In this document: positions 42,329-59,471 of the stretch, piece by piece
Numbering within the stretch: position 1 is the first letter of the stretch
Layout of the letters: the number at the start of each line of letters is the position of its first letter
Source: Flavitalea plasmicola
Lineage (GTDB): Bacteria; Bacteroidota; Bacteroidia; Chitinophagales; Chitinophagaceae
Direction: 5' to 3'
NCBI RefSeq assembly: GCF_030546645.1
Contig: NZ_JAUOTO010000004.1
Location: 868,001-932,000 of the forward strand
DNA length: 64,000 nt
Notes under the pieces: generated by a model
Told to the model about the DNA's origin: nothing
Database searches by the model: none
What the model saw: the letters and a program-made list of their open reading frames with translations, nothing else
Translations under genes and position numbers: made by a program

Positions 42329-42461
42329 TCTCGCGGGCCATTGCCCGGGAGACCGGGTAGGGTTGACTATTAACCAAAACCGACCCAAGGCATGACCATA
42401 ATGAAGAAGATGATCTTTCCTATTCAAAAGGTGAAACTATATAATAGCAAGAAGTCGAGTG

Positions 42462-45400
42462 ATGAAAGCAATAAATTATGCCCGGATCTTTTATACGGCA
42501 GGTATGTCGTTTTTCGCGTCGCTGTGCATTCTTACGTCTTTTGCCCAAGTGCGTCTCCCCCGTCTTATCAGCGATGGCATGGTCCTGCAGCGGGACAGCA
42601 AGGTGCTTATCTGGGGATGGGCGGCTCCCGGCGAAAAAGTGACTGTGCATTTCGATGGCCATTCGTCTTCGGCCGTCGCGGGCGGCGATGGAAAATGGAC
42701 TGTGGAGCTGGCGCCCATGTCTGCCGGCGGTCCCTATGACATGCGCATCGACGCATCTGATGAGGTACTGGTCAAGGACATACTTATAGGAGACGTGTGG
42801 TTGTGTTCCGGTCAATCGAATATGGAGTTGCCCATGGAAAGGGTAAAAGAAAAATATGCCGATGAAATAGCGCGGTCCGCCAATCCAATGATCAGGCAAT
42901 TCGCGCCCCGCATGCAGTACGACTTCAGCAGGCCGCGGGAAGACTTTCAGGCAGGTGGCTGGCAGTCTGCAACGCCGGCGACAGTGCTTGCCTTTTCCGC
43001 CGTGGGTTATTTTTTCGCCAAAGAACTTTATGAAAGATACCATATACCCATTGGCCTGATAAAGGCCCCGGTGGGAGGATCGCCTGCCGAGGCCTGGCTG
43101 AGTGAAGAGGCCCTGCAGCAATTCCCCGATCACTTAGCCGTTGCGGCCAAGTATAAAGACCCTTCTTATGCCGAAAGCATCCACCGGAAGGAGGACTCCG
43201 TCAATAAAGCCTGGTACCAGCGCATAGCGCAGCAGGATGCCGGACTGCATGATGTAAAGTCCTGGTCCGACCCTGCCTATGATGCGACTGAATGGCGGGA
43301 GATGGACATACCCGGCTTCTGGTCCGACCAGGGCCTACCCCAGGTCAACGGCGTGGTGTGGTTCCGGAAAGATATCGAGGTGCCTGAGCAGCTGACGGGG
43401 CGATCTGTGAAGCTGATGCTGGGGCGTATTGTCGACCTGGACTCGGTGTATGTGAATGGCGTATTCGTAGGGACCACCGGGTATCAGTATCCGCCCAGAA
43501 GATATGAGATACCCGCCGGAATACTGAAGCCCGGCAGGAATACCCTTGTCATAAGAGTGATCAACAGCGCCGGCCAGGGCGGCTTTATCACCGATAAGCC
43601 CTATTGGATGGGACTGGAAGGCAACCGCATCGACCTGCGGGGAAAATGGCGTTACAAGCTGGGCGCCACGGCCACACCGCTGCCATCCACCACTTTCTTT
43701 CAATATAAGCCCCTGGGATTATTCAATGGTATGATCGCTCCGCTGCTGCATACTGCCGTCAAGGGGGTCATATGGTACCAGGGTGAGTCGAATGCCGGCA
43801 GGGCCTGGGAGTACCGGAGTTTATTCAGCGCTATGATCGCCGATTGGCGTTGGCACTGGAGAGCAGACGACCTGCCATTCCTCTATGTACAGCTGGCCAA
43901 TTTTATGGAGGCAAAAGCACAGCCTTCCGAAAGTGACTGGGCGGCCTTGCGCGAAGCACAGCTGCAGACGCTGGTCGTCCCACGAACAGGCATGGCCGTG
44001 GCGACGGATGTCGGAGAGTGGAACGATCTTCATCCGCTGGATAAATATGATGTCGGCAAACGGCTTGCTTTGGCGGCCCGCGCGATAGCTTATGGGGAGA
44101 AGGGGCTGGTGTACAGTGGTCCGCTGTATAGTTCGATGCGCAGGGAGGGTAACGCCATACGGATAAGGTTTACATCCATCGGCAGCGGGCTGACGGCCAA
44201 AGGGGGCGGCGCGCTGAAAGGCTTTGCCATAGCCGGCCCTGACAAACATTTTGTATGGGCCCATGCCATGATCGAGGGCGCCGACGTGGTGGTGCAGAGC
44301 GGGCAGGTGAGCGATCCGGTGGCAGTGCGCTATGCCTGGGCCGACAATCCGGAAGGCGCGAACCTATATAACAAGGAAGGCCTTCCAGCTTCTCCTTTCC
44401 GCACGGATACGATTGGACCCGTTGTTCCCCCCGTGCGCCTGACGGCTGAGCAGGACCATCGTCGTATGATGCAGTTGCTCCATATCGATTCTCTCCGTCC
44501 GGGACCTTCCGGCAATCCGCAGGCAACCAATGCCGCCAACGTCGATGAGTCAAAGGCCAGTCCCTATGTCAGCCTGCCGGACCCGCTGGTACTGAACAAT
44601 GGGAAGAAGGTAACAACTTCAGCCAGGTGGTGGGGGCAGCGACGTCCTGAGATCGTGGAAGATTTCGACAGGGAGGTTTATGGACGTATGCCGGCGGGTA
44701 TTCCTGCGGTGCGATGGGAGATCGTGAGCGCCGCACAGGAGAAGGTGGGAGATTTTTCCGTCATAACAAAGAAATTATCGGGCCATGTGGACAACAGCAG
44801 CTATCCGGCCGTCACCGTGAACATCGAACTTACCCTGACAACGCCGGCCAATGCCCCGGGGCCGGTGCCAGTGATCATGGAATTCGGCTTTCGATGGCCG
44901 GCTGGCATGCGGCCGCCCGATCCACCTTCGGGTCCTCAGGCTCCGGCCTGGCAGGAACAGGTGCTGGCAAAAGGCTGGGGCTATGCAATTATCTATCCCA
45001 CCAGCATACAAGCCGACAACGGAGCTGGACTGACGGAAGGTATTATCGGACTGGTAAATAAGGGGCAGCCCCGCAAGCCTGATGATTGGGGCGCCTTGAA
45101 AGCCTGGGCCTGGGGCGCCAGCCGTGCGCTGGATTATTTCGGGACAGACCCTGCCGTGGACGCAAAACAGGTAGCCATTGAAGGGCTTTCCCGTTATGGA
45201 AAAGCTGCTATTGTCGCCATGGCCTATGAGCCACGCCTGGCGATTGCCTTTGTAGGTTCTTCCGGCGAAGGCGGCGTCAAGATCCATCGACGACATTTTG
45301 GCGAGCAGGTGGAGAACGTTGCCTCATCCGCCGAATACCATTGGATGGCTGGTAATTTCCTGAAATATGCGGGACCGCTTACTCCCAACGACCTGCCCGT

Positions 45401-45743
45401 GGATGCCCACGAGCTTGTGGCGCTCTGCGCTCCCCGGCCAGTGTTTATCAGCTCGGGTTCCCCCCAGGTGGAAGGCAACTGGGTAGACGCGAGAGGCATG
45501 TTCCTTGGAGGCGTATATGCCGGACCTGTTTACAGGCTGCTGGGAAAAAAGGACCTTGGCACGACGGAGTTCCCTCCCATGGAGACGGCACTCACCGGCG
45601 GAGAGATAGCCTTCCGCCAGCATAGCGGAGGACATACCACTGGTCCGAACTGGCCGGCATTCCTGCAATTTGCCGGTCGCTATTTTAAGACCCCGAAGGA
45701 TCACAGCGGAGCGAAAGGCGCTAACGCAGTATTGGCAAAGTGA
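42462..45743 (+). CDS. Sialate O-acetylesterase / CE15 glucuronoyl esterase fusion
   Basis: This 1093-aa secreted protein joins two esterase modules. Residues about 30-640 are a SASA/SGNH acetylesterase with Ser119 in [12 protein letters not shown] and the late Asp/His in [11 protein letters not shown]. Residues about 690-1090 are a CE15 glucuronoyl esterase with nucleophile Ser910 in [10 protein letters not shown] and the His region [14 protein letters not shown]15 splits the ester between lignin and glucuronoxylan. The fusion would deacetylate and de-esterify the same polymer. An in-frame GTG one codon upstream is possible. Confidence 0.87.
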
Positions 45744-45783
45744 GCCGCAGGCCCTATTTTTACGTCTTAAACATTCAACAGCA

Positions 45784-46971
45784 ATGGAAAGGAATTCGTT
45801 AATGGAAGAGACGATGAGATGGTTTGGCCCCAATGACCCGGTAAGCCTGTGGGATATACGCCAGGCCGGCTGTACAGGTGTAGTCACGGCGCTTCATCAT
45901 ATCCCTGTTGGGGAAGTATGGCCGATGGAGGAGATCCAAAAAAGAAAAGATGAGATCGAAAAGGCCGGCATGCGCTGGACGGTGATCGAAAGTCTTCCGG
46001 TGCATGAGGACATCAAGAAGCACACCGGCAATTTTCAGCAATATATTAAAAACTACCAGGAGAGTCTCCGCAATGTGGCCCGCTGTGGCCTGGAAGTCGT
46101 CACATACAATTTCATGCCCATCCTCGACTGGATGCGGACGGAGATCGCGTATGAAATGCCCGACAGGAGCAAAGCCCTTCGCTTTGAGAAATCCGCCTTC
46201 ATTGCTTTCGATTTGTTCATCCTGAAAAGACCGGGTGCAGAAAGGGACTATACGAAAGAAGAGATAGAAAAAGCCCGCGTCCGTCACTCCAGGATGAATG
46301 ATGAAGAAAAAGAAACATTATATCGCAACGCTTTGCTTGGTCTGCCGGGTAGTGAAGAACGCTTCACAGAAGAGCAGATCCTTGCGGCATTGCGTACTTA
46401 CGAAGGCATTGACGCGCATAAGCTGAAACAGCATCTTTTTTATTTCCTGCAACAGGTGGTGCCGGTGGCAGCCGCGGAAGGGCTCAAGATGGCCATTCAC
46501 CCTGACGATCCTCCCTTTCCGATCCTGGGTCTGCCGCGCATTGTCAGTACTGAGCAGGATGCCCGGGAATTACTGGACAGCGCGCCTTCCCCTGCCAACG
46601 GGCTTTGTTTCTGCACCGGCTCGTATGGGGTAAGGGCGGATAATGATCTTCCCGGCATGGTCCGCCGGCTGGGAGAACACATTCATTTCATCCACCTGCG
46701 CAGCACCAAAAGGGATGAGGAGGGGAATTTCTTTGAGGCCGATCATTTGGGCGGTGATGTGGACATGGTGGCTGTCATCGGTGAATTGCTGAAAGTACAG
46801 GCAAAGCGGGGCATTTCGCTTCCGATGCGACCTGACCATGGACACCAGATGCTGGATGATCTGAAAAAGAAAACCTACCCGGGTTATAGCGCCATAGGAA
46901 GACTGAGAGGGCTGGCCGAATTAAGAGGTATTCAATGGGGTATCCGGGGAGTAGGGGGAATAAAATCTTAA
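45784..46971 (+). CDS. uxuA: Mannonate dehydratase
   Basis: The 395-aa TIM-barrel enzyme dehydrates D-mannonate to 2-keto-3-deoxygluconate in hexuronate catabolism. Signature blocks are [15 protein letters not shown] near the N-terminus, the metal-site [25 protein letters not shown] and the C-terminal [10 protein letters not shown]. The length fits UxuA exactly with the chosen ATG; the frame is open upstream into the esterase gene. It follows the esterase after 40 nt and is likely co-transcribed. Confidence 0.94.
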
Positions 46972-50247: not shown

Positions 50248-51348
50248 ATGCTGAAGGACGTAAAGTTTCGCCCAAAGAAAATTCTCTTTACGATAGGTTC
50301 CCCCAACCAGGCAAGCCAGATGCATCAGATAGCATCCCTGTTGCCGGAATACGACTGCTACTTCAGCCAGTTATACAGCAAGCATCCCATCGTCAAATGG
50401 TGTAAGAAGAAAGGCTTCCTTGAAAACACGATCCTCTCAGGTGAATTTAAAAGAAAGGGAGATGCCTACCTGCAACGGCATCGTTTACGCAATGATTACG
50501 CCCGCGGGATCTACGGGCATGAATATGACATGGCTGTTCTATGCACGGACTTGCTGGTCGCCAAAGAGTTGCGCCGTTTGAAAACAGTTTGGGTACAGGA
50601 AGGCATGACGGACCCTGTTACGCCTCTTGCTAAGTGGACGCATCGCCTGGGACTTCCATCCTGGTCTGCCATGAACACGGCTTTCAACGGATGCAGCAAT
50701 ATCTGTGATATTTACTGCGCGGCCAGCGCGGGGTACAAAGCGCAATTCAGCCGGTGGGGTACTGAAGCTGCCAGGATCTTTGTTACGGGCATACCGAATT
50801 ACGATCATGCAGCGGTCCACCTTGACAACGATTTTCCGCATCATAACTATGTGATGGTGGCTACATCGGACATCCGTGAATGCTTTAACAAGGATGACCG
50901 GCCGGGCTTCATCCGCCGATGCGTGGAGATCGCCGCCGGCAGACCTTTACTTTTCAAGCTGCATCCTAATGAGCTAAAGGAACGCGCCATTGCCGAGATC
51001 CGTCAATATGCTCCTGCCGGCGCAATGATCTTCACGGAAGGTAATACGGATCATATGATCGCCAACTGCGATGAGCTGATCACCCAGTACTCCACAGTGG
51101 TGTACACGGGTATCGCCCTAGGTAAAAAGGTACATTCCTATTTTGATGTGGAGAAGCTAAGGCAGCTGGCCCCCATCCAGAATGGCGGCGGCTCGGCGGC
51201 AAGTATAGCGGACCTGTGCCGGCGATATATCGAGTTCAAAGGCACCCGGGAAGACTTTTTGGCCAGGACCACTATTCATCAACATACAAACAGTAGCCAT
51301 GAACGACTGCGGGAAAAAGATCGTCACTATTATTCAAACCAGGCGTGA
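50248..51348 (+). CDS. GT-B-like glycosyltransferase or epimerase-fold protein
   Basis: The 366-aa protein resembles CDP-glycerol/capsule transferase and UDP-GlcNAc-2-epimerase-like folds, with the conserved LLFKLHPNELKERAI and a C-terminal TQYSTVVYTGIALGKKV helix. No signal peptide is seen. It heads the run of sugar-pathway genes, and its last 50 nt overlap the next gene, so I infer it transfers or modifies the product sugar. The exact activity is unknown. Confidence 0.6.
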   Translation: MLKDVKFRPKKILFTIGSPNQASQMHQIASLLPEYDCYFSQLYSKHPIVKWCKKKGFLENTILSGEFKRKGDAYLQRHRLRNDYARGIYGHEYDMAVLCTDLLVAKELRRLKTVWVQEGMTDPVTPLAKWTHRLGLPSWSAMNTAFNGCSNICDIYCAASAGYKAQFSRWGTEAARIFVTGIPNYDHAAVHLDNDFPHHNYVMVATSDIRECFNKDDRPGFIRRCVEIAAGRPLLFKLHPNELKERAIAEIRQYAPAGAMIFTEGNTDHMIANCDELITQYSTVVYTGIALGKKVHSYFDVEKLRQLAPIQNGGGSAASIADLCRRYIEFKGTREDFLARTTIHQHTNSSHERLREKDRHYYSNQA

Positions 51349-52978
51349 GTCCACCCGGCTGCCTGACAAAGCGCTGATGCCTCTTGCAGGCAAACCATTA
51401 TTTGTCCAGCAGGTGCGCAGGATACAGGCTGCAAACCTGGCAGGAACGGTGGTTGTAGCGACAACGCCCTCACAGGCCGACGACAGCATTGTGGAAATAT
51501 GCAGGCAGGAAGGTATCGAATGTTTCCGGGGGCATGCTGCCGACCTGCTGGACAGGCATTACCGGGCGGCGTGCCACTATGAGGCTGATGTTGTGCTGAA
51601 GATCCCCAGCGATTGTCCCCTGATAGATCCTGCGATCGTCGACCAGGTGATCGCCTACTATCTGCATCATGAGCATGAATATGACTATGTCAGCAATCTG
51701 CATCCGGCCACCTGGCCTGATGGTAATGACGTGGAGGTCATGTCGCTGGAGGTCCTGAAAAAAGCCCATGCCCATGCGACCCTGCTGATGGAAAGGGAGC
51801 ACACCACTCCGTATATCTGGGAAAGACCGGAGCAGTTCCGCATTGGCAATGTGGTGATGGAGGGAGGATTGAATTATTCCATGACGCACCGGTGGACGAT
51901 TGATTACCAGGCGGACTACCAGTTTATACAGGCTGTGTATGAGCAGCTGTACCCGTCGGATCCATTGTTTGGAGTCCGGGAGATCCTGGAGCTACTGGAG
52001 AGGAGGCCGGATATTTATCGGATCAATGCATCCCTGGCAGGCGTCAATTGGTATCGACATCACCTGGATGAACTAAAAACCATATCTCCGGGCGAGACCA
52101 GAAACCCCTCCGTGACAAATTCCAAGCTCCAGCGACTGCAGTCCATTGCTCTGCGTGTCAGGGAGCATATCATACGCATGTCCGCCGGCGGCGGATGTTT
52201 TATCGGCGCTTCGCTTTCCTGCGTCGAATTAATGGTCTACCTCTACTCGGAATTTCTCCGCCATGGACCCAAAGGCGGATCGGACCCTCACAGGGATTAT
52301 CTTTTCTTATCCAAAGGTCATGATGTGCCCGCCCTTTACGGCACTTTTGTGGAGTTGGGCCTCCTGGATCCAGGCCGGCTTGATAATCATCTATCTACCA
52401 CTGATAGCATTTATTGGCATCCCAACAGGGCCATTCCCGGCGTAGAGTTTCATTCCGGCTCCCTCGGGCATCTTCCGGCCGTGGCGGCCGGCGTGGCGCT
52501 GGACTGCAGGCTGCGGGGCGCGGACAACCGGGTCATCGTCATTACAGGCGACGGCGAGCTGAATGAAGGCAGTGTCTGGGAAACCATATTAGTCGCCGAT
52601 GCGCAAAAGCTGGATAACCTCACCCTTGTAGTGGACCGCAACCAATTCCAGGCGAATATCCGGACGGAAGAGCTGGTGCCGCTGGAACCATTGGCGGACA
52701 AGTTCAGGGCATTTGGATGCCGTGTTCGCCGTATTGACGGACATGATTTTTTGCAATTAGAGGAAGCATTCCGGGAGCTGCCGGTTGCCGATGGCACCGG
52801 TGGTATGAATGTCATCATCGCCGATACGGTAAGAGGGAAGGGGCTGCCCAGCATCGAGGCCAGGGCCGACCGTTGGTTCTGTGCATTCACGGCACCGGAA
52901 ATAGAGCAGCTGTTGCAGGAATTACACGGCCTTAAAGAAGAAATACTTATAACATCGGAAAGCCTGGTCGTACGTTGA
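51299..52978 (+). CDS. Cytidylyltransferase fused to transketolase N-terminal half
   Basis: The 559-aa protein has two parts. Residues about 6-250 are a SpsF/NeuA-like nucleotidyltransferase (TIIQTRRESTRLPDKALMPL, LKIPSDCPLID). Residues about 275-555 are a transketolase N subunit (LSKGHDVPALYGTF, the TPP-binding GDGELNEGSVWE, VDRNQFQ). The C subunit is the next gene. The frame is continuous through both modules. This fusion implies that the ketol-transfer step and the CMP activation belong to one sugar pathway. Confidence 0.82.
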   Translation: MNDCGKKIVTIIQTRRESTRLPDKALMPLAGKPLFVQQVRRIQAANLAGTVVVATTPSQADDSIVEICRQEGIECFRGHAADLLDRHYRAACHYEADVVLKIPSDCPLIDPAIVDQVIAYYLHHEHEYDYVSNLHPATWPDGNDVEVMSLEVLKKAHAHATLLMEREHTTPYIWERPEQFRIGNVVMEGGLNYSMTHRWTIDYQADYQFIQAVYEQLYPSDPLFGVREILELLERRPDIYRINASLAGVNWYRHHLDELKTISPGETRNPSVTNSKLQRLQSIALRVREHIIRMSAGGGCFIGASLSCVELMVYLYSEFLRHGPKGGSDPHRDYLFLSKGHDVPALYGTFVELGLLDPGRLDNHLSTTDSIYWHPNRAIPGVEFHSGSLGHLPAVAAGVALDCRLRGADNRVIVITGDGELNEGSVWETILVADAQKLDNLTLVVDRNQFQANIRTEELVPLEPLADKFRAFGCRVRRIDGHDFLQLEEAFRELPVADGTGGMNVIIADTVRGKGLPSIEARADRWFCAFTAPEIEQLLQELHGLKEEILITSESLVVR

Positions 52979-52991
52979 AAAAATAAAAATT

Positions 52992-53903
52992 ATGACTTAC
53001 GAAGAGTTGTTGATAGAGACAGCCCTGGCGGATGAGCGTATCATCGTCATGACGGCGGAGAACAGGGCCCTGGTCCGGAATGTGCCGAAGGCATTGGGCC
53101 ACCGCTTTGTGGATACGGGCATCACGGAGCAAACCCTTGTCGGCATGGCAGCCGGTCTTGCTTTAAGAGGACGTATTCCCATCATACACGCGCTGGCGCC
53201 TTTTCTCACCATGCGGGCCTTTGAATTCATCCGAACGGATGTCGGGATCGCTCATTTACCTGTGAAGCTCAGCGGCTATATCCCCGGCCTGCTGTCTGAC
53301 GGTAATGGACCCACGCACCAATCCATCGAGGATGTAGCCATCATGCGCGGGATACCGGGTATGGAAGTATATTGTCCTGCTGACGAGGATGACCTGGTGA
53401 GGTCGCTGCCGGCCATCTGGTCTTCGGATGCCCCGGCCTATGTCCGGGTGAATCACAAAAAAGGCGAGTATACTCACCGGCCTTTTGAAAGAGGTAAGGC
53501 GGAAGTGGTTACAGAAGGCACGGATATCACCATATTGGTATATGGGTTCTTATTCGAGAATGCTTTAAGGGCTCAGCGAATCCTGCAGCGGGAGGGGCTG
53601 TCGGTGGGACTGCTGAACATGCGCTCACTAAAGCCCGTAGATGAAGCTGCCATCGTGCGCGCGGCCAAAAGGTCGCGGATGCTGGTGACCATCGAAGACC
53701 ACCTGTTGACAGGGGGGCTATATTCCATCGTAGCTGAAGTCCTGCTGAGAGCCGGTGTTACGGTACGCACCTTACCGATGGCTTTTGAAGAACGTTGGTT
53801 CAAACCCGGTTTGCTGACGGGGGTGTTGGAGACCGAAGGGCTCACGCCGGAGAAAATTGCCGGAAAGATATTTACATCATCCAATCTGTTATATGCCGAA
53901 TAA
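52992..53903 (+). CDS. Transketolase C-terminal half
   Basis: The 303-aa protein carries the Pyr domain, with the catalytic Glu in FVDTGITEQTLVGMAAGLAL, and the C-terminal regulatory domain (VYGFLFENALRAQRIL, VTIEDHLLTGGLYSIV). It completes the TPP enzyme with the N half encoded 14 nt upstream. It may use a special sugar rather than central pentose phosphates, given the context. Confidence 0.88.
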   Translation: MTYEELLIETALADERIIVMTAENRALVRNVPKALGHRFVDTGITEQTLVGMAAGLALRGRIPIIHALAPFLTMRAFEFIRTDVGIAHLPVKLSGYIPGLLSDGNGPTHQSIEDVAIMRGIPGMEVYCPADEDDLVRSLPAIWSSDAPAYVRVNHKKGEYTHRPFERGKAEVVTEGTDITILVYGFLFENALRAQRILQREGLSVGLLNMRSLKPVDEAAIVRAAKRSRMLVTIEDHLLTGGLYSIVAEVLLRAGVTVRTLPMAFEERWFKPGLLTGVLETEGLTPEKIAGKIFTSSNLLYAE

Positions 53904-55230
53904 AGTTGCTTTCAATGAAGCGTACCCCGTCGTAACGGGGTCGGATGGCCTGTACGAGCGTGCATTGCCGATCATGACGCCCGTCACCCAGACGCTGGCC
54001 AAAGGTCCCGGACAATATATCAACGGTGTGGCGCCGAAATACCTGAAAAGGGGGAAAGGCGCCCGCGTATGGGATGTGGATGGAAATGAGTTCCTGGATT
54101 ATAATATGGCGATTGGTCCCTTGTCGCTGGGTTACTGCTATCCCCGCGTAGATGAGGCCATCATTGCCCAGCTGAAAGATGGGATCACATTTTCCATGAT
54201 GCATGAGCTGGAAGTCGTGCTGGCGGAATTGATCCATGACATCATTCCCAATGCGGAAGCGATCCGGATCAGCAAGACAGGCGCGGATGTCACCAGCGCT
54301 GCCGTTCGTGTCGCCAGGGCTTTCACCGGCAGGAAGAAAGTGCTTTGCTGCGGCTATCATGGATGGCATGACTGGTATATCTCCGTCACGAGCCGCAGTA
54401 GCGGGATACCTCAAGAGGTCAGGGACCTGACCTCGACCTTCGGCTACAATGATATCGACTCTGTAAAAAATGCGTTGGATGAGGATACTGCCTGTGTGAT
54501 CCTGGAGCCGTTTGTGTTCGAGGCGCCGCGGCATAATTTCTTACAGGAGCTAAAGGACCTATGTGAGGCTAACGGGACCTTACTCATATTTGACGAAATG
54601 TGGACCGGCTTTCGCATCGCCCTGGGTGGTGCGCAGGAATTCTTCGGTGTGACACCTGACCTGGCCTGCTATTCCAAGGCATTTGCCAATGGGATGCCTA
54701 TTTCATTGCTGACAGGGAGGAAAGAGGTCATGGACCTGTTCAAAGAGGAGGTCTTTTTCTTCACCACTTTTGGGGGGGAAGCTTTGTCATTGGCTGCGGC
54801 AGTGGCTACGATACAGGAGATGAAGGAGAAGAATGTCGCCGCGTACCTGGCGGAGAAAGGCAAAAGGATAAAGGACGGCTATAATATGCTGGCAGCCGAG
54901 CTGGGCATCGCACATTACACAGGGTGTACGGGATATGATTGCAGGTCCCTGGTGAGCTTCGATGCTGTTGCGGGCAATCCCCTGGAGCTCAAATCTTTTG
55001 TTCAGCAGGAGATGCTCAGGCGCGGTGTTCTATGGTCTGGGTTTCACAATATGAGCTTTAGCCATACGGATGAGGAGGTGAATTACACGCTGGCAGCCTA
55101 CAGGGAAGTCCTTGGCTTGCTGAAAGAGGCAGTGACCCGCCAGGAGGTGGCATCCTTGCTGCGGGGAGCGCCTATCGAACCGGTGTTTCGTAAGGTCAGC
55201 AATTTCAATACAAAGCCTGTGACAAAATAA
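53893..55230 (+). CDS. Class III aminotransferase (glutamate-1-semialdehyde aminomutase-like)
   Basis: The 445-aa PLP enzyme has DVDGNEFLDYNMAIGPLSLG near the N-terminus, the cofactor-site LLIFDEMWTGFRIA and the PLP lysine in CYSKAFANGMPISLLTG. Homologues in surface-polysaccharide loci aminate sugar carbonyls. The ATG overlaps the transketolase stop by 11 nt. True HemL is unlikely because of the locus. Confidence 0.85.
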   Translation: MPNKVAFNEAYPVVTGSDGLYERALPIMTPVTQTLAKGPGQYINGVAPKYLKRGKGARVWDVDGNEFLDYNMAIGPLSLGYCYPRVDEAIIAQLKDGITFSMMHELEVVLAELIHDIIPNAEAIRISKTGADVTSAAVRVARAFTGRKKVLCCGYHGWHDWYISVTSRSSGIPQEVRDLTSTFGYNDIDSVKNALDEDTACVILEPFVFEAPRHNFLQELKDLCEANGTLLIFDEMWTGFRIALGGAQEFFGVTPDLACYSKAFANGMPISLLTGRKEVMDLFKEEVFFFTTFGGEALSLAAAVATIQEMKEKNVAAYLAEKGKRIKDGYNMLAAELGIAHYTGCTGYDCRSLVSFDAVAGNPLELKSFVQQEMLRRGVLWSGFHNMSFSHTDEEVNYTLAAYREVLGLLKEAVTRQEVASLLRGAPIEPVFRKVSNFNTKPVTK

Positions 55231-55235
55231 GAAAT

Positions 55236-56039
55236 ATGGAACTTTTCTCACTATCCGGCAAAATAGCAGTGGTCACAGGGGCCTGTGGCCTACTGGGCAA
55301 GAGTCATTGTGAAGCGCTGGCAGAAGCAGGCGCGCTGGTGGTGGCAGCAGACCTGGAGGAAGGGCGATGTGTCCGGGTTGCGGAGGAACTGGGGGGACAG
55401 CATATGGGGTTAGGGGTAGACGTGACGGATATTAACTCTTTGCAGGGAGCCAGGGAACGTATCGTAAGCAGGTATGGACGCATCGATGTGCTGGTCAACA
55501 ATGCAGCCATCAATGACAAGTTTGAAGATCCCGTCCTGGGCGCCAGGCAATCTATGTTCGAGCACTATCCCCTGGAGATGTGGAACAGGAGCTGGCAGGT
55601 GAATGTCAGCGGGGTATTCCTGTGCAGCCAGATCCTGGGAGGGGTTATGGCGGAACAGGGGTCGGGCAGCATCATTAATATTTCATCTACTTACGGTGTC
55701 GTGGCACCGGACCAGCGCATCTACCGTAATGAGGCCGGAGAGCAGACATTTTACAAGTCGCCTGCCTACCCTGTGACGAAGTCGGCTGTGATCGGCTTTA
55801 CCAGGTTCCTGGCTGCTTATTGGGGACATCGTGGGGTGCGGGTCAATACGTTATCGCCAGGTGGGGTAGAGAATAGCCAGGATGCATTTTTCGTAGGCAA
55901 TTATTCCAGCAAGACGCTGCTGGGCCGGATGGCGACCCCGGTGGACTATAAGGGCGCCATCGTTTTTCTGGCCGGGGATGCTTCTGCCTATATGACTGGA
56001 GGCAACCTGATAGTGGATGGTGGCTGGACGGCTATTTGA
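55236..56039 (+). CDS. SDR-family oxidoreductase
   Basis: The 267-aa protein has the cofactor loop VVTGACGLLG, VNNAAIN and the Tyr/Lys pair in SPAYPVTKSAVIG. It lies 5 nt after the aminotransferase. An oxidation or reduction step of the sugar precursor is inferred from context. Confidence 0.85.
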   Translation: MELFSLSGKIAVVTGACGLLGKSHCEALAEAGALVVAADLEEGRCVRVAEELGGQHMGLGVDVTDINSLQGARERIVSRYGRIDVLVNNAAINDKFEDPVLGARQSMFEHYPLEMWNRSWQVNVSGVFLCSQILGGVMAEQGSGSIINISSTYGVVAPDQRIYRNEAGEQTFYKSPAYPVTKSAVIGFTRFLAAYWGHRGVRVNTLSPGGVENSQDAFFVGNYSSKTLLGRMATPVDYKGAIVFLAGDASAYMTGGNLIVDGGWTAI

Positions 56040-56069
56040 TAAGGCGCTGACTACCTAAAAATATAATGC

Positions 56070-56570
56070 ATGAGTGAAGATCAACTTAAGGTATCCGCAG
56101 CACGGATAAAGCTTCTGCTGACGGATGTCGACGGCGTATTGACAGACAACGGCGTGTACTATTCGGAGAATGGCGAAGCGATGAAGCGGTTTTCCATCCG
56201 CGACGGAATGGGCGTTGAACGCCTTCGTAAGCTGGCAGGCATCGACACGGGGATCATCACCGGAGAGACCTCTCCTTCGGTGGTTCGCCGGGCAGAGAAG
56301 CTCCAGATCCGGGAATTGCATCTGGGTATCAGGAACAAGCTGGACAGGGTTACGGAGATCATGCAACGTCTTCAGCTGCAGTGGCAGGAGATCGCCTATA
56401 TCGGAGATGATGTCAATGACCTGGAAGTGATGGAAAAAGCCGGTTTGACGGCCTGTCCTGCCGACGCAATGCCCCAGGTGAGCGAAATAGTGCGCTACCA
56501 TTGCCGGAACGAGGGTGGCTATGGCGCTTTCAGGGAATTCGCCGAATGGTTGATAGAACTTAAAAAATAA
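56070..56570 (+). CDS. KdsC-like HAD phosphatase
   Basis: The 166-aa HAD hydrolase has the nucleophile/acid pair in LLLTDVDGVLTDNGVYY, the Thr motif TGIITGETS, and late metal Asps in YIGDDVNDLEVM. It matches 3-deoxy-octulosonate-8-phosphate phosphatase and nonulosonate-9-phosphate phosphatases. Its place just before the NeuB-like gene suggests the condensing step gives a phosphorylated product. Confidence 0.88.
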   Translation: MSEDQLKVSAARIKLLLTDVDGVLTDNGVYYSENGEAMKRFSIRDGMGVERLRKLAGIDTGIITGETSPSVVRRAEKLQIRELHLGIRNKLDRVTEIMQRLQLQWQEIAYIGDDVNDLEVMEKAGLTACPADAMPQVSEIVRYHCRNEGGYGAFREFAEWLIELKK

Positions 56571-56575
56571 AGAAT

Positions 56576-57502
56576 ATGAACACTTTTCATGTGAGCAGCA
56601 AAAGAAGTATTGGCGCCGGCCAGCCTGTGTACATCATTGCTGAAATAGGGATCAACCACAATGGGTCCCTGGACATTGCGAAGCGACTGATCGACGAAGC
56701 CGTACAGGCAGGAGCCGATGCCGTTAAGTTCCAGAAGCGGACGCCTGAGCTTTGCACGCCCAGGGATCAGTGGCACCTGGAAAGGGATACGCCCTGGGGA
56801 AGAATGAGCTATATCAATTACAGACATATGATCGAGCTGGGATTCGATGAGTACGGAGCCATCGATTCGTATTGTAAGGAGAAGGGGATCGATTGGTTCG
56901 TATCCTGCTGGGACGAGGCTGCCGTCGACTTTATGGAACAATTCGATCCCGGGGTTTACAAGTTTGCCTCTGCCTGCCTTACCGATCACGACCTGATAGC
57001 AAGGGTCAAACGCACAGGCCGACCCTATATCCTTTCCACCGGCATGTCCACGATGAGTGAGATCACAGCAGCTGTTGACAAGTTCGGGACGGACAATCTC
57101 ATGGTGGCTCATTCCACGTCAGCGTATCCCTGTCCGCCGCAGGAGCTGAATCTCCGGATGGTACAGACCTTGATGGACCTGTATCCGGATACACCTGTAG
57201 GTTATTCCGGGCATGAGACGGGGCTGGCGACGACCGTAGCGGCCGTGGCATTGGGCGCTTGTTTTGTAGAAAGACATTTCACGCTCGACAGGGCCATGTG
57301 GGGGTCCGACCATGCAGCCTCCGTGGAACCGCAGGGCATGCAAAAGCTGGTACGGGACATACGTGATGTGGAGCTGGCACTGGGCGATGGCATCAAGCGC
57401 GTATACGAAAGTGAGCTGGGCGCTATGAAACGGCTGAGAAGAAGCAACAAGCTACAAGCTACAAGCGGGAAGCTACAAGCTGCAAGCTACAAGGAGAGGT
57501 GA
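56576..57502 (+). CDS. NeuB-family nonulosonate synthase lacking the SAF domain
   Basis: The 308-aa protein has the NeuB TIM barrel: AEIGINHNGSLDIAKRLI, DAVKFQKRTPE, STGMSTMSEI, HSTSAYPCPPQELN and ERHFTLDRAMWGSDHAAS. NeuB enzymes condense PEP with an aldose. The usual C-terminal SAF/antifreeze-like domain (about 60 residues) is absent. The last 20 or so residues (LQATSGKLQAASYKER) come from a CTACAAG repeat tract. Truncation by the repeat is likely. Confidence 0.85.
   Translation: MNTFHVSSKRSIGAGQPVYIIAEIGINHNGSLDIAKRLIDEAVQAGADAVKFQKRTPELCTPRDQWHLERDTPWGRMSYINYRHMIELGFDEYGAIDSYCKEKGIDWFVSCWDEAAVDFMEQFDPGVYKFASACLTDHDLIARVKRTGRPYILSTGMSTMSEITAAVDKFGTDNLMVAHSTSAYPCPPQELNLRMVQTLMDLYPDTPVGYSGHETGLATTVAAVALGACFVERHFTLDRAMWGSDHAASVEPQGMQKLVRDIRDVELALGDGIKRVYESELGAMKRLRRSNKLQATSGKLQAASYKER
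57445..57493. repeat. CTACAAG-type tandem repeat at the NeuB-like 3' end
   Basis: Five or six near-exact AAGCTAC/AAGCTGC units run through the last codons of the synthase. The same unit appears at 5402-5435 between genes. Confidence 0.75.
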
Positions 57503-57505
57503 TCT

Positions 57506-58459
57506 ATGCAGCATATCGTTTATTATACGACCACGGTCCTGCTGATAAGCGTAGGCGTCTTTCTCTGGCTGGAGAGAAAGATACCCTATACCAAGGGACT
57601 ACCCTTGTTCCGGGATGGTTTTTGGGTGGACCTGGTCTGGTATACGCTGATCCAAAGCTATTTTTTAAAGATCCTGATCTTCGACTATATCATTATTCCT
57701 ATAGACAAAGCCTGGCACCTGTCCTCCATGCATCTCGTGGCCTCCTGGCCCCTGGCGCTGCAGGTGCTGTTCTTTTTAGTGGTGCACGACTTTTATATCT
57801 ATTGGTTCCACCGATGGCAACATCATTCCAGGATACTCTGGCGTACCCATGAAGCGCATCATTCCAACAAAGCCGTGGATTGGCTGGCGGGCACCCGGAG
57901 CCACGCTTTGGAAATATTGATCAATCAAACGGTGGAGTTTGCCCCCATCGTCCTGCTGGGCGCCAACCCGTTGATCGTCCCTATTAAAGCGTTGCTGGAT
58001 GCCGTCTGGGGAATGTATATCCACTCCAATATAAATGTGCGCAGCGGCAGATGGCAGTGTATCATCAATGGACCCGAGATGCATCAGTGGCATCATGCCA
58101 ATGACAAAAGAGTGTTCTATGCCAACTTCTCTACCAAGCTGGCCCTTTGGGATTGGTTGTTCGGCACCGCCTTTTTGCCTAATGAGGAGAAGCCGGGCGA
58201 GTATGGACTGTATTATGATTATCCGAAAGATTATTTCCTTCAGCACCTGTTTGCCGTCAAGCGAATGGATGAGGGGAAGCTGGCGGAAAAGTACCGGTGG
58301 TTCCGGGCCTATCATGGTTTTAGAGGAAGGCTGCTGCAACGGATGAAAACTAAAAACATATTTCATGGCCTGGATATACCTGGTGATCGCATCCCTGTTC
58401 GAGATCTGCTGGACATTTTGCCTGAAGTTCATGAGCGTGCAGAAGCTAAGGACCATTAG
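57506..58459 (+). CDS. Fatty acid hydroxylase / sterol desaturase family membrane protein
   Basis: The 317-aa protein has four or more hydrophobic helices and the diiron His clusters HDFYIYWFHRWQHH, THEAHH and HQWHH. The family oxidises lipids or other alkyl groups. The last 32 codons overlap the next gene by 95 nt. Its role in the surrounding sugar locus is not clear. Confidence 0.85.
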   Translation: MQHIVYYTTTVLLISVGVFLWLERKIPYTKGLPLFRDGFWVDLVWYTLIQSYFLKILIFDYIIIPIDKAWHLSSMHLVASWPLALQVLFFLVVHDFYIYWFHRWQHHSRILWRTHEAHHSNKAVDWLAGTRSHALEILINQTVEFAPIVLLGANPLIVPIKALLDAVWGMYIHSNINVRSGRWQCIINGPEMHQWHHANDKRVFYANFSTKLALWDWLFGTAFLPNEEKPGEYGLYYDYPKDYFLQHLFAVKRMDEGKLAEKYRWFRAYHGFRGRLLQRMKTKNIFHGLDIPGDRIPVRDLLDILPEVHERAEAKDH

Positions 58460-58730
58460 CTGGGGAGCCTTCTTTTCCCGACGCGAACATTGGGAGATCC
58501 TGCTGCCATTTGCCGGTTATGTCGTCTTTGGGGTAGGGAATATCATCTTTTTCTCGATGTCCATGAAGCAAATCTCTGCTACTACGGCGCTTGCCGCCTG
58601 GATGGGGCTCACCCTGATAGGCACCAGGCTGGCGGAAATCTATTTCTTCAAGCAGCCTTCCAATCTTTATCAATTCCTGTACATGGGTCTCATTTTGGTG
58701 GGTATTATCGGTCTGAAACAGACCGATTAG
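58365..58730 (+). CDS. SMR-type small membrane transporter
   Basis: The 121-aa protein has four hydrophobic helices and the SMR start MAWIYLVIASLFEICWTFCL, with the membrane Glu at position 13 conserved as in EmrE-like proteins. A longer loop (SWGAFFSRREHWEI) sits after TM1. It overlaps the hydroxylase gene by 95 nt in another frame. It may export a drug or, like ArnE/F types, flip a lipid-linked sugar. Confidence 0.8.
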   Translation: MAWIYLVIASLFEICWTFCLKFMSVQKLRTISWGAFFSRREHWEILLPFAGYVVFGVGNIIFFSMSMKQISATTALAAWMGLTLIGTRLAEIYFFKQPSNLYQFLYMGLILVGIIGLKQTD

Positions 58731-59434: not shown

Positions 59435-59471
59435 CTGAGTCCGCGATTTGGTCGCGGATTTTCAGTTTTTA
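59435..59471 (+). terminator. Intrinsic terminator after the split-barrel gene
   Basis: The stem TCCGCGA/TCGCGGA with loop TTTGG is extended by CTGA/TCAG and followed by TTTTT. Confidence 0.88.

Follow-up and report, generated by a model that had tools for sequence, protein, structure and literature searches.

Nine clustered genes in the window

The window analysed here is a stretch of 64,000 nucleotides from Flavitalea plasmicola (contig NZ_JAUOTO010000004.1, positions 868,001 to 932,000). Nine open frames on the + strand occupy positions 50248-58730 of the window, and we tentatively propose that they encode a pathway for an aminated nonulosonic acid. A sequence-only reading of this DNA had described nine same-strand genes in the order given below, and all of these frames are present. 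Searches with Pfam and NCBIfam bear out its labels for eight of the nine proteins; the exception is the first protein, whose GT-B label is supported by an AlphaFold model.

The first gene (GT, 50248..51348, 366 aa) encodes a predicted GT-B-fold glycosyltransferase, a proposed CMP-ulosonate transferase. The second (51299..52978) encodes a 559-aa fusion of an SpsF-like cytidylyltransferase (PF02348, approximately residues 1-260) with the N-terminal half of a transketolase (TKN, PF00456, approximately residues 270-559), and the C-terminal half (TKC, PF02779 and PF02780) follows at 52992..53903. The gene at 53893..55230 encodes a class III aminotransferase (AT3, PF00202) resembling glutamate-1-semialdehyde (GSA) aminomutase, which scores 373 bits against NF004856 (cut-off 486). 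It is followed by an SDR oxidoreductase (55236..56039, PF13561), proposed to carry out an alcohol oxidation step, and by a KdsC-type phosphatase of the HAD family (56070..56570) that scores 151.6 bits against TIGR01670, over the cut-off of 106.95. The NeuB-family ulosonate(-phosphate) synthase (56576..57502) matches PF03102 with 258.6 bits (gathering score 22.1) and has no SAF domain. The last two genes encode a diiron membrane oxidase of the FA_hydroxylase family (FAH, 57506..58459, PF04116) and an SMR transporter (58365..58730, PF00893), possibly a flippase.

The genes are closely packed. GT overlaps the fusion gene by 50 nt, and a gap of 13 nt separates the fusion gene from TKC. TKC overlaps AT3 by 11 nt if AT3 starts at the ATG at 53893, and by 47 nt if it starts at the listed TTG at 53857. 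From AT3 through SDR, KdsC and NeuB to FAH the gaps are 5, 30, 5 and 3 nt. The earlier statement that overlaps or gaps reach up to 46 nt nearly holds, but the overlap between FAH and SMR, the largest in the cassette, is 95 nt. Promoter-like sites occur at chance level, and terminator-like sites number 13 against 8.1 +/- 3.3, with one plausible site at 59437-59461.

Conservation of the cassette

The 559-aa fusion protein was searched against 296 Bacteroidota genomes, 46 of which contain a cassette-type cytidylyltransferase (at least 49% identity). Forty stretches were fetched around the best matches, and NeuB lies beside other cassette genes in 35 of them (all except L053, L056 and L069-L071). 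A NeuB alignment was also used to scan named genomes, and the 80 best of 583 loci were taken; they come from Hymenobacter, Mucilaginibacter, Taibaiella, Aquirufa, Saprospiraceae, Ignavibacteria, Chlorobiaceae, a Byssovorax metagenome-assembled genome (MAG), an Anaerolineae MAG and many Streptomyces.

From these 120 loci we selected the 57 that have at least four of GT, cytidylyltransferase, AT3, SDR and NeuB, and left the other 63 out of the counts; the core-gene counts partly follow from this rule. The cytidylyltransferase, AT3, SDR and NeuB are present in all 57 selected loci, GT in 56, FAH in 52, KdsC in 47, TKN and TKC in 44 each and SMR in 17. The order GT-cytidylyltransferase-(TKN-TKC)-AT3-SDR-(KdsC)-NeuB-(FAH)-(SMR) is kept in 51 of the 57. 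KdsC lies upstream in L046, NeuB-FAH-SMR is inverted in L085 and GT is missing from L073; the order listed for L036, L037 and L119 is arbitrary, because in each a single frame is shared or overlapped by two domains. The cytidylyltransferase and TKN form a single frame only in L072 among the 120 fetched loci and are separate genes elsewhere. Because 57 loci of other genomes keep most of the core genes in almost the same order, the nine-gene set is, judged by gene content and order, a conserved cassette that goes beyond chance. The prediction that it forms one pathway is well supported.

The NeuB synthase and its phosphatase

The sequence-only reading had counted an inactive synthase, together with another intact one elsewhere in the genome, as evidence against itself; the NeuB of the window is the only one in the genome. 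In this protein 59 residues follow the GSDHAAS motif, a GSDxAAS-like catalytic motif. The corresponding tail is 41-68 residues long in 115 of 115 related loci, which leaves no room for an SAF/antifreeze domain, and 97-98 residues long in three NeuBs with an SAF-like tail (L182-L184). Since all 115 relatives have short tails, the comparison indicates that the loss of SAF is ancestral and not damage.

The last NeuB codons are formed by a tract of 7-bp units (AAGCTAC-like, 57442-57499). An 18-base pair of units from this tract has 20 matches in the genome and none for the reversed control, as of a dispersed element, and a change in its length would shift the frame behind the NeuB catalytic domain. 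Truncation of NeuB by the tract was considered and rejected, as the relatives end at about the same place.

The window NeuB falls below the cut-offs of the NnaB model (TIGR03569, 257.8 bits, cut-off 399.65) and the PseI model (TIGR03586, 214 bits, cut-off 340.25). Active-site residues of Neisseria meningitidis NeuB are listed in an excerpt of PMC6795526. Seven of the ten that can be aligned are kept (Glu25, Gln55, Lys129, Tyr186, Ser213, His215 and Glu234) and three are substituted (Thr110 to Ser, Phe112 to Trp and Asn184 to Ser), while Asn74, Phe288 and Arg314 are not alignable or lie outside the window protein. According to the same excerpt, Arg314, which belongs to the SAF domain, positions the N-acetyl group of N-acetylmannosamine in the N. 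meningitidis enzyme. An SAF-less NeuB may therefore plausibly take a sugar without an N-acetyl group.

In six loci (L036, L082, L084, L098, L099 and L103) KdsC and NeuB are one open frame. Because of these fusions it is well supported that KdsC would act directly after NeuB, and this part of the earlier reading holds. The cassette KdsC is the only KdsC-family match in the window genome at E 1e-30, and nine listed genomes of the same family have no such match at that threshold. KdsA and WaaA are present in the window genome and in the three of those nine that were checked.

In a NeuB tree of 89 rows, 82 cassette-type rows are separate from the remaining seven NeuBs, of which four are also short-tailed. 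Ten Streptomyces rows form one clade within a set that also holds the window NeuB (93, not starred). The window NeuB is about 65% identical to the NeuBs of these Streptomyces loci, where NeuB adjoins a frame that combines cytidylyltransferase and KdsC segments. Of the cassette genes, the fetched Streptomyces loci contain only NeuB and this KdsC-containing frame.

The first gene

Pfam and NCBIfam give no match for the first protein up to E 0.01. The AlphaFold model (mean pLDDT 86.5) shows a GT-B fold, and the nearest folds among the 50 listed are UDP-GlcNAc 2-epimerases/NeuC (Z 18.1, root mean square deviation 3.6, 284 residues aligned), with further matches to MGD1 (15.2), TagF (14.8) and MurG (14.7). 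PF02350 gives no match to this protein up to E 0.01, and its relatives score below the cut-off. We take SGGxQEE to be the signature of UDP-GlcNAc 2-epimerase; where the genome's own epimerase reads SGGIQEE the first protein reads YSTVVY, in a weak alignment (probability 59). We considered, and set aside, a role for this gene as a NeuC-like 2-epimerase that would provide the aldose, the fold being alike and the sequence signature different. Because the modelled fold is GT-B and YSTVVY stands in place of the epimerase signature, we call the protein a putative glycosyltransferase. No CMP-sialyl- or Kdo-transferase is among the 50 fold matches listed, which excludes nothing.

The split transketolase

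The transketolase pair is missing from 13 of the 57 selected loci, and its presence and absence on the NeuB tree imply at least six changes, three of them forced. Where present, the pair lies between the cytidylyltransferase and AT3 in most loci. R358, H461 and D469 of Escherichia coli transketolase are presumably sugar-phosphate pocket residues. None of the three is found in the cassette TKCs (30 of 30), which have Asn at the place of D469. Among 17 control TKCs all three residues are present in nine and not in eight, and none has Asn at the D469 place.

Loci with and without the transketolase are not told apart by any column of AT3 or SDR; the best AT3 column reaches 0.76 of 1 and is a Val/Ile exchange. 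As no column tracks its presence, the product of the transketolase probably does not change what AT3 sees, and the transketolase product as AT3 substrate was set aside on the same observation. A different role would be for the transketolase to add a two-carbon ketol to the aldehyde that the SDR makes on the free nonulosonate, after which AT3 would aminate the new ketone to give an eleven-carbon amino-ulosonic lipid head. The altered TKC pocket, which lacks the phosphate-binding residues, fits an unphosphorylated acceptor of this kind, whereas the missing AT3 column counts against it. We know of no sialic acid of that size, and give the idea very little credence, the least of any considered here.

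A fused transketolase of about 658 aa occurs in L220-L225, in genomes without a cassette transketolase; it reads AGPGKSHQ where the split transketolases read GEDGATHQ, and the L220 protein is below the NCBIfam transketolase cut-offs. L211 (G219:C61) has a TKN-like stretch in a frame that is reported as 24,709 aa and passes the fetched end.

A related gene set in Chlorobiaceae

From the Chlorobiaceae in the sample, which holds more, 25 genomes were chosen for testing. Their group includes Chlorobaculum, since the transketolase-like match in its genome G036 shares its coordinates with that in G297, from which L087 comes. A cassette-type NeuB (63-69% identity) and a cassette-type GT (43-47% identity) are present in all 25. 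KdsC adjoins NeuB in five of five named Chlorobiaceae loci, and this pair is unlinked from GT and its partner genes. The five named genomes contain no cassette cytidylyltransferase or transketolase, only relatives at 29-38% (29-36% for the transketolase stretches). In these 25 genomes, the closest relatives of AT3 reach 34-37% identity and might represent the housekeeping GSA aminomutase.

The Chlorobiaceae GT loci have the order flippase-like membrane protein, GT, cytidylyltransferase, iron-dependent alcohol dehydrogenase (Fe-ADH) and DegT aminotransferase in six of six cases. An AMP-ligase gene lies on the opposite strand nearby, about 8 kb off in L237. The families of these genes were assigned in L235 and partly in L237. 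The best solved relative of the L235 DegT protein is 5k8b, the 8-amino-3,8-dideoxy-D-manno-octulosonate transaminase KdnA, with 277 bits; the next scores 161.

Six cassette loci (L046, L047, L051, L053, L056 and L069) carry, directly upstream of GT, a flippase-like gene that is 26-38% identical to its Chlorobiaceae counterpart. Three of them (L053, L056 and L069), which are partial cassettes with no NeuB beside, also have the same AMP-ligase nearby (57-62%). Because the flippase-like gene and the AMP-ligase are common to both sets, the cassette and the Chlorobiaceae set seem to descend from one GT locus in which the modification enzymes were swapped. The cytidylyltransferase, the oxidoreductase and the aminotransferase would each have been replaced by an unrelated or distant type. 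The KdnB and KdnA enzymes oxidise and then aminate a finished ulosonic acid, giving 8-amino-Kdo (Kdo being 3-deoxy-D-manno-oct-2-ulosonic acid). That the same NeuB and GT pair occurs with KdnA/KdnB-like genes in Chlorobiaceae supports, by analogy, a role of SDR and AT3 like that of KdnB and KdnA.

The acceptor

The only NCBIfam match of FAH is OlsE (NF052566, 103.6 bits, below the cut-off of 475), and SMR has weak matches to SugE and ArnE, below the cut-off. A gene for OlsF, the bifunctional ornithine lipid synthase, lies on the same strand directly downstream of FAH or SMR in six of the 57 loci (L038, L041, L049, which is split or partial, L055, L062 and L130), both with and without the transketolase. 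The L062 protein scores 718 bits (cut-off 620); G031, G051, G066 and G236 carry four of the six genes and have OlsF proteins that exceed the cut-off, and the split copy of G116 is below it. The cassette is present in six of the 11 genomes with an over-cut-off OlsF, the other five being without it, against 40 of the 281 others (Fisher p 0.003, shared ancestry ignored). A calcineurin-like phosphoesterase is found downstream in six other loci.

The flank survey covered the listed clusters that recur in at least four of the 57 loci, most of them read by eye. Among them are genes for OlsF, phosphoesterases, regulators and electron transport. A cluster found at -4 to -8 in about six loci has a heptosyltransferase-type look, so that a link to lipopolysaccharide is possible. 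No Wzx/Wzy-type genes were recognised among the listed recurrent clusters, and a polysaccharide-locus context was set aside for this reason. The OlsF and flippase-like neighbours and the OlsE-like FAH suggest a membrane lipid rather than a polysaccharide as the acceptor, which we put forward as a preference, not a result.

A pair of frames outside the cassette, at 42459-46971, consists by eye of a 1094-aa frame of the sialate O-acetylesterase type and a mannonate-dehydratase-like frame; it is probably concerned with uronate use and unrelated to the cassette.

Proposed pathway and alternatives

We propose, with somewhat less than even confidence, that the product of the cassette is an aminated nonulosonic acid of the Kdn type (Kdn being 3-deoxy-D-glycero-D-galacto-non-2-ulosonic acid), which the cassette enzymes also activate and attach, and that amination follows condensation. 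The SAF-less NeuB would condense phosphoenolpyruvate (PEP) with the 6-phosphate of an aldose without acetyl groups, most probably mannose 6-phosphate, to give Kdn 9-phosphate, and KdsC would take off the phosphate. The SDR would then oxidise a hydroxyl, plausibly the freed C9-OH, and AT3 would aminate the oxidised position to yield, for example, 9-amino-9-deoxy-Kdn, in the way that KdnB and KdnA form 8-amino-Kdo. Since C9 carries the phosphate until KdsC has acted, terminal amination before that step is ruled out in this scheme. The SpsF-like domain would form the CMP-sugar, the GT-B transferase would link it to an acceptor in the envelope, for which a membrane lipid is likelier than a polysaccharide, and FAH and SMR would modify and flip the lipid. 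The substrates, the aminated position and the lipid acceptor are all inferred, mannose 6-phosphate by analogy with the Streptomyces relatives.

Several findings weigh against this proposal. The transketolase pair, which is accessory, has no role in it. AT3 is a class III enzyme and not of the DegT type like KdnA, and the window genes include neither a DegT-type KdnA nor an Fe-ADH KdnB, the class III aminotransferase and the SDR standing in their place. The KdnA/KdnB-like pair of Chlorobiaceae might have Kdo, and not the product of NeuB, as its substrate. The cassette KdsC scores 166.5 bits on the Kdn-9-phosphate phosphatase model NF058599, below the cut-off of 180, and the KdsCs of cassette-free genomes score alike (G111 166.5, G273 159.3), so we rejected this score as a diagnostic of Kdn. 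Seven loci exceed that cut-off. Three, the strongest, have a NeuB with an SAF-length tail (L182-L184), three have a short one (L185-L187), and the seventh has no NeuB within its 3.3-kb contig. As the over-cut-off loci are split between SAF-length and short NeuBs, SAF loss is, on this comparison, no marker of Kdn. The link to Kdn through Streptomyces depends on a presumed, though likely, identity of those loci with the SCO4873-SCO4882 cluster described in an excerpt of PMC13011467. Finally, no OlsF was found in the window genome at E 1e-60.

The sequence-only reading had a different order, in which the transketolase, AT3 and the SDR build an amino-aldose phosphate that NeuB condenses with PEP before KdsC and the cytidylyltransferase act. 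The 3-amino-5-hydroxybenzoic acid (AHBA)/rifamycin route, with its split transketolase and aminotransferase, is comparable. The position of the transketolase pair between cytidylyltransferase and AT3 speaks for this order, and the altered pocket of a dedicated transketolase points to an unusual substrate. These points are set against the patchy occurrence of the transketolase (13 loci without it and repeated changes on the NeuB tree), the low identity of the transketolase stretches in the five Chlorobiaceae genomes, the lack of any AT3 or SDR column that follows it, the KdnA/KdnB-like partners in Chlorobiaceae and the similar NeuBs of Streptomyces, which have none of these partners adjoining. 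We consider it doubtful, and amination before condensation unlikely. A pathway in two parts is improbable to a like degree: NeuB and KdsC would make plain Kdn, the cytidylyltransferase, AT3, SDR and transketolase would make a second activated amino compound, and both would be placed on one surface molecule. The unlinked NeuB-KdsC pair of Chlorobiaceae would fit this, as would the partial loci L053 and L056, which are GT-cytidylyltransferase-TKN-TKC-AT3 without NeuB. Fused relatives of the cytidylyltransferase and AT3 occur in L203 (7014-9101) and L207 (7723-9747), in loci that by eye are of the pseudaminic type and hold a second cytidylyltransferase. These fusions support joint action of the two enzymes, but the relatives are only about 38-39% (cytidylyltransferase) and 31-32% (AT3) identical to those of the cassette. 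A division in two would also leave the cassette without an enzyme to activate the ulosonate, and GT accompanies NeuB in all but one of the 57 selected loci and in all 25 Chlorobiaceae genomes.

A variant of the N-acetylneuraminic acid (Neu5Ac), pseudaminic, legionaminic or Kdo pathway would draw on the same enzyme superfamilies, and is very unlikely. The NeuB scores are far below the NnaB and PseI cut-offs, there is no room for SAF, and Pfam and NCBIfam find no NDP-sugar dehydratase among the nine genes. A KdsA over the cut-off and WaaA, separate from the cassette, are present in 25 of 25 chosen genomes, the window genome included, and the cassette as a replacement for Kdo was rejected on this finding. 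The earlier view that these genes form an uncharacterised ulosonic-acid pathway thus stands: the NeuB scores are below the Neu5Ac and pseudaminic cut-offs, the Kdo route is separate, and no description of the gene set was found among the listed results of searches in the open-access literature.

Comparison with known systems

Our proposal of amination after condensation is like the 8-amino-Kdo (Kdo8N) route of Shewanella oneidensis, in which KdnA and KdnB act on an ulosonic acid after its synthesis, by oxidation and then amination. The Chlorobiaceae set resembles that route in its KdnA-like aminotransferase and Fe-ADH. The window differs in having a class III aminotransferase, an SDR and NeuB in place of KdsA, and in having the transketolase, FAH and SMR in addition.

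Kdn pathways of Bacteroides thetaiotaomicron (BT1714, Kdn-9-phosphate phosphatase) and Prymnesium parvum are described in an excerpt of PMC6200933. They share with the cassette a NeuB-type synthase, acting there on mannose 6-phosphate, a phosphatase (in B. thetaiotaomicron) and a CMP synthetase. Unlike the window, they have no aminotransferase, SDR or transketolase named in that excerpt, and the NeuBs beside the three strongest matches to the Kdn-phosphatase model have SAF-length tails, whereas the window NeuB is short.

The walls of Streptomyces carry Kdn in teichulosonic acid, according to an excerpt of PMC11481543, and the presumed loci of this cluster (SCO4873-SCO4882; also PMC13011467) contain the SAF-less NeuB relatives discussed above. 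The product there is a wall polymer, and the likeness to the cassette is confined to NeuB and the KdsC-containing frame.

There are two precedents on the lipid side. The aminoglycosphingolipid of Chlorobium limicola reportedly contains neuraminic acid. This amino-sugar sphingolipid of Chlorobiaceae is cited in an excerpt of PMC11762602, and a Kdn-linked sphingolipid of Emiliania huxleyi in the excerpt of PMC6200933; in these excerpts the genes are unassigned. We infer the link of the cassette to a lipid.

Each kind of enzyme in the cassette is already known, and the novelty lies in the combination, in the SAF-less NeuB family and in the parallel set of Chlorobiaceae. As the order of the enzymes before and after condensation is stated, the pathway is directly testable with purified enzymes. 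If the proposal is true, an undescribed aminated sialic-acid-like sugar would be made by many members of the Bacteroidota and Ignavibacteriota, and in a different version by Chlorobiaceae, using an ancestrally SAF-less family of NeuB, and this sugar would possibly be part of a membrane glycolipid. The Chlorobiaceae genes would then be candidates for the aminoglycosphingolipid long known from green sulfur bacteria, and the lipid would be the bacterial counterpart of the Kdn sphingolipid found in algae.

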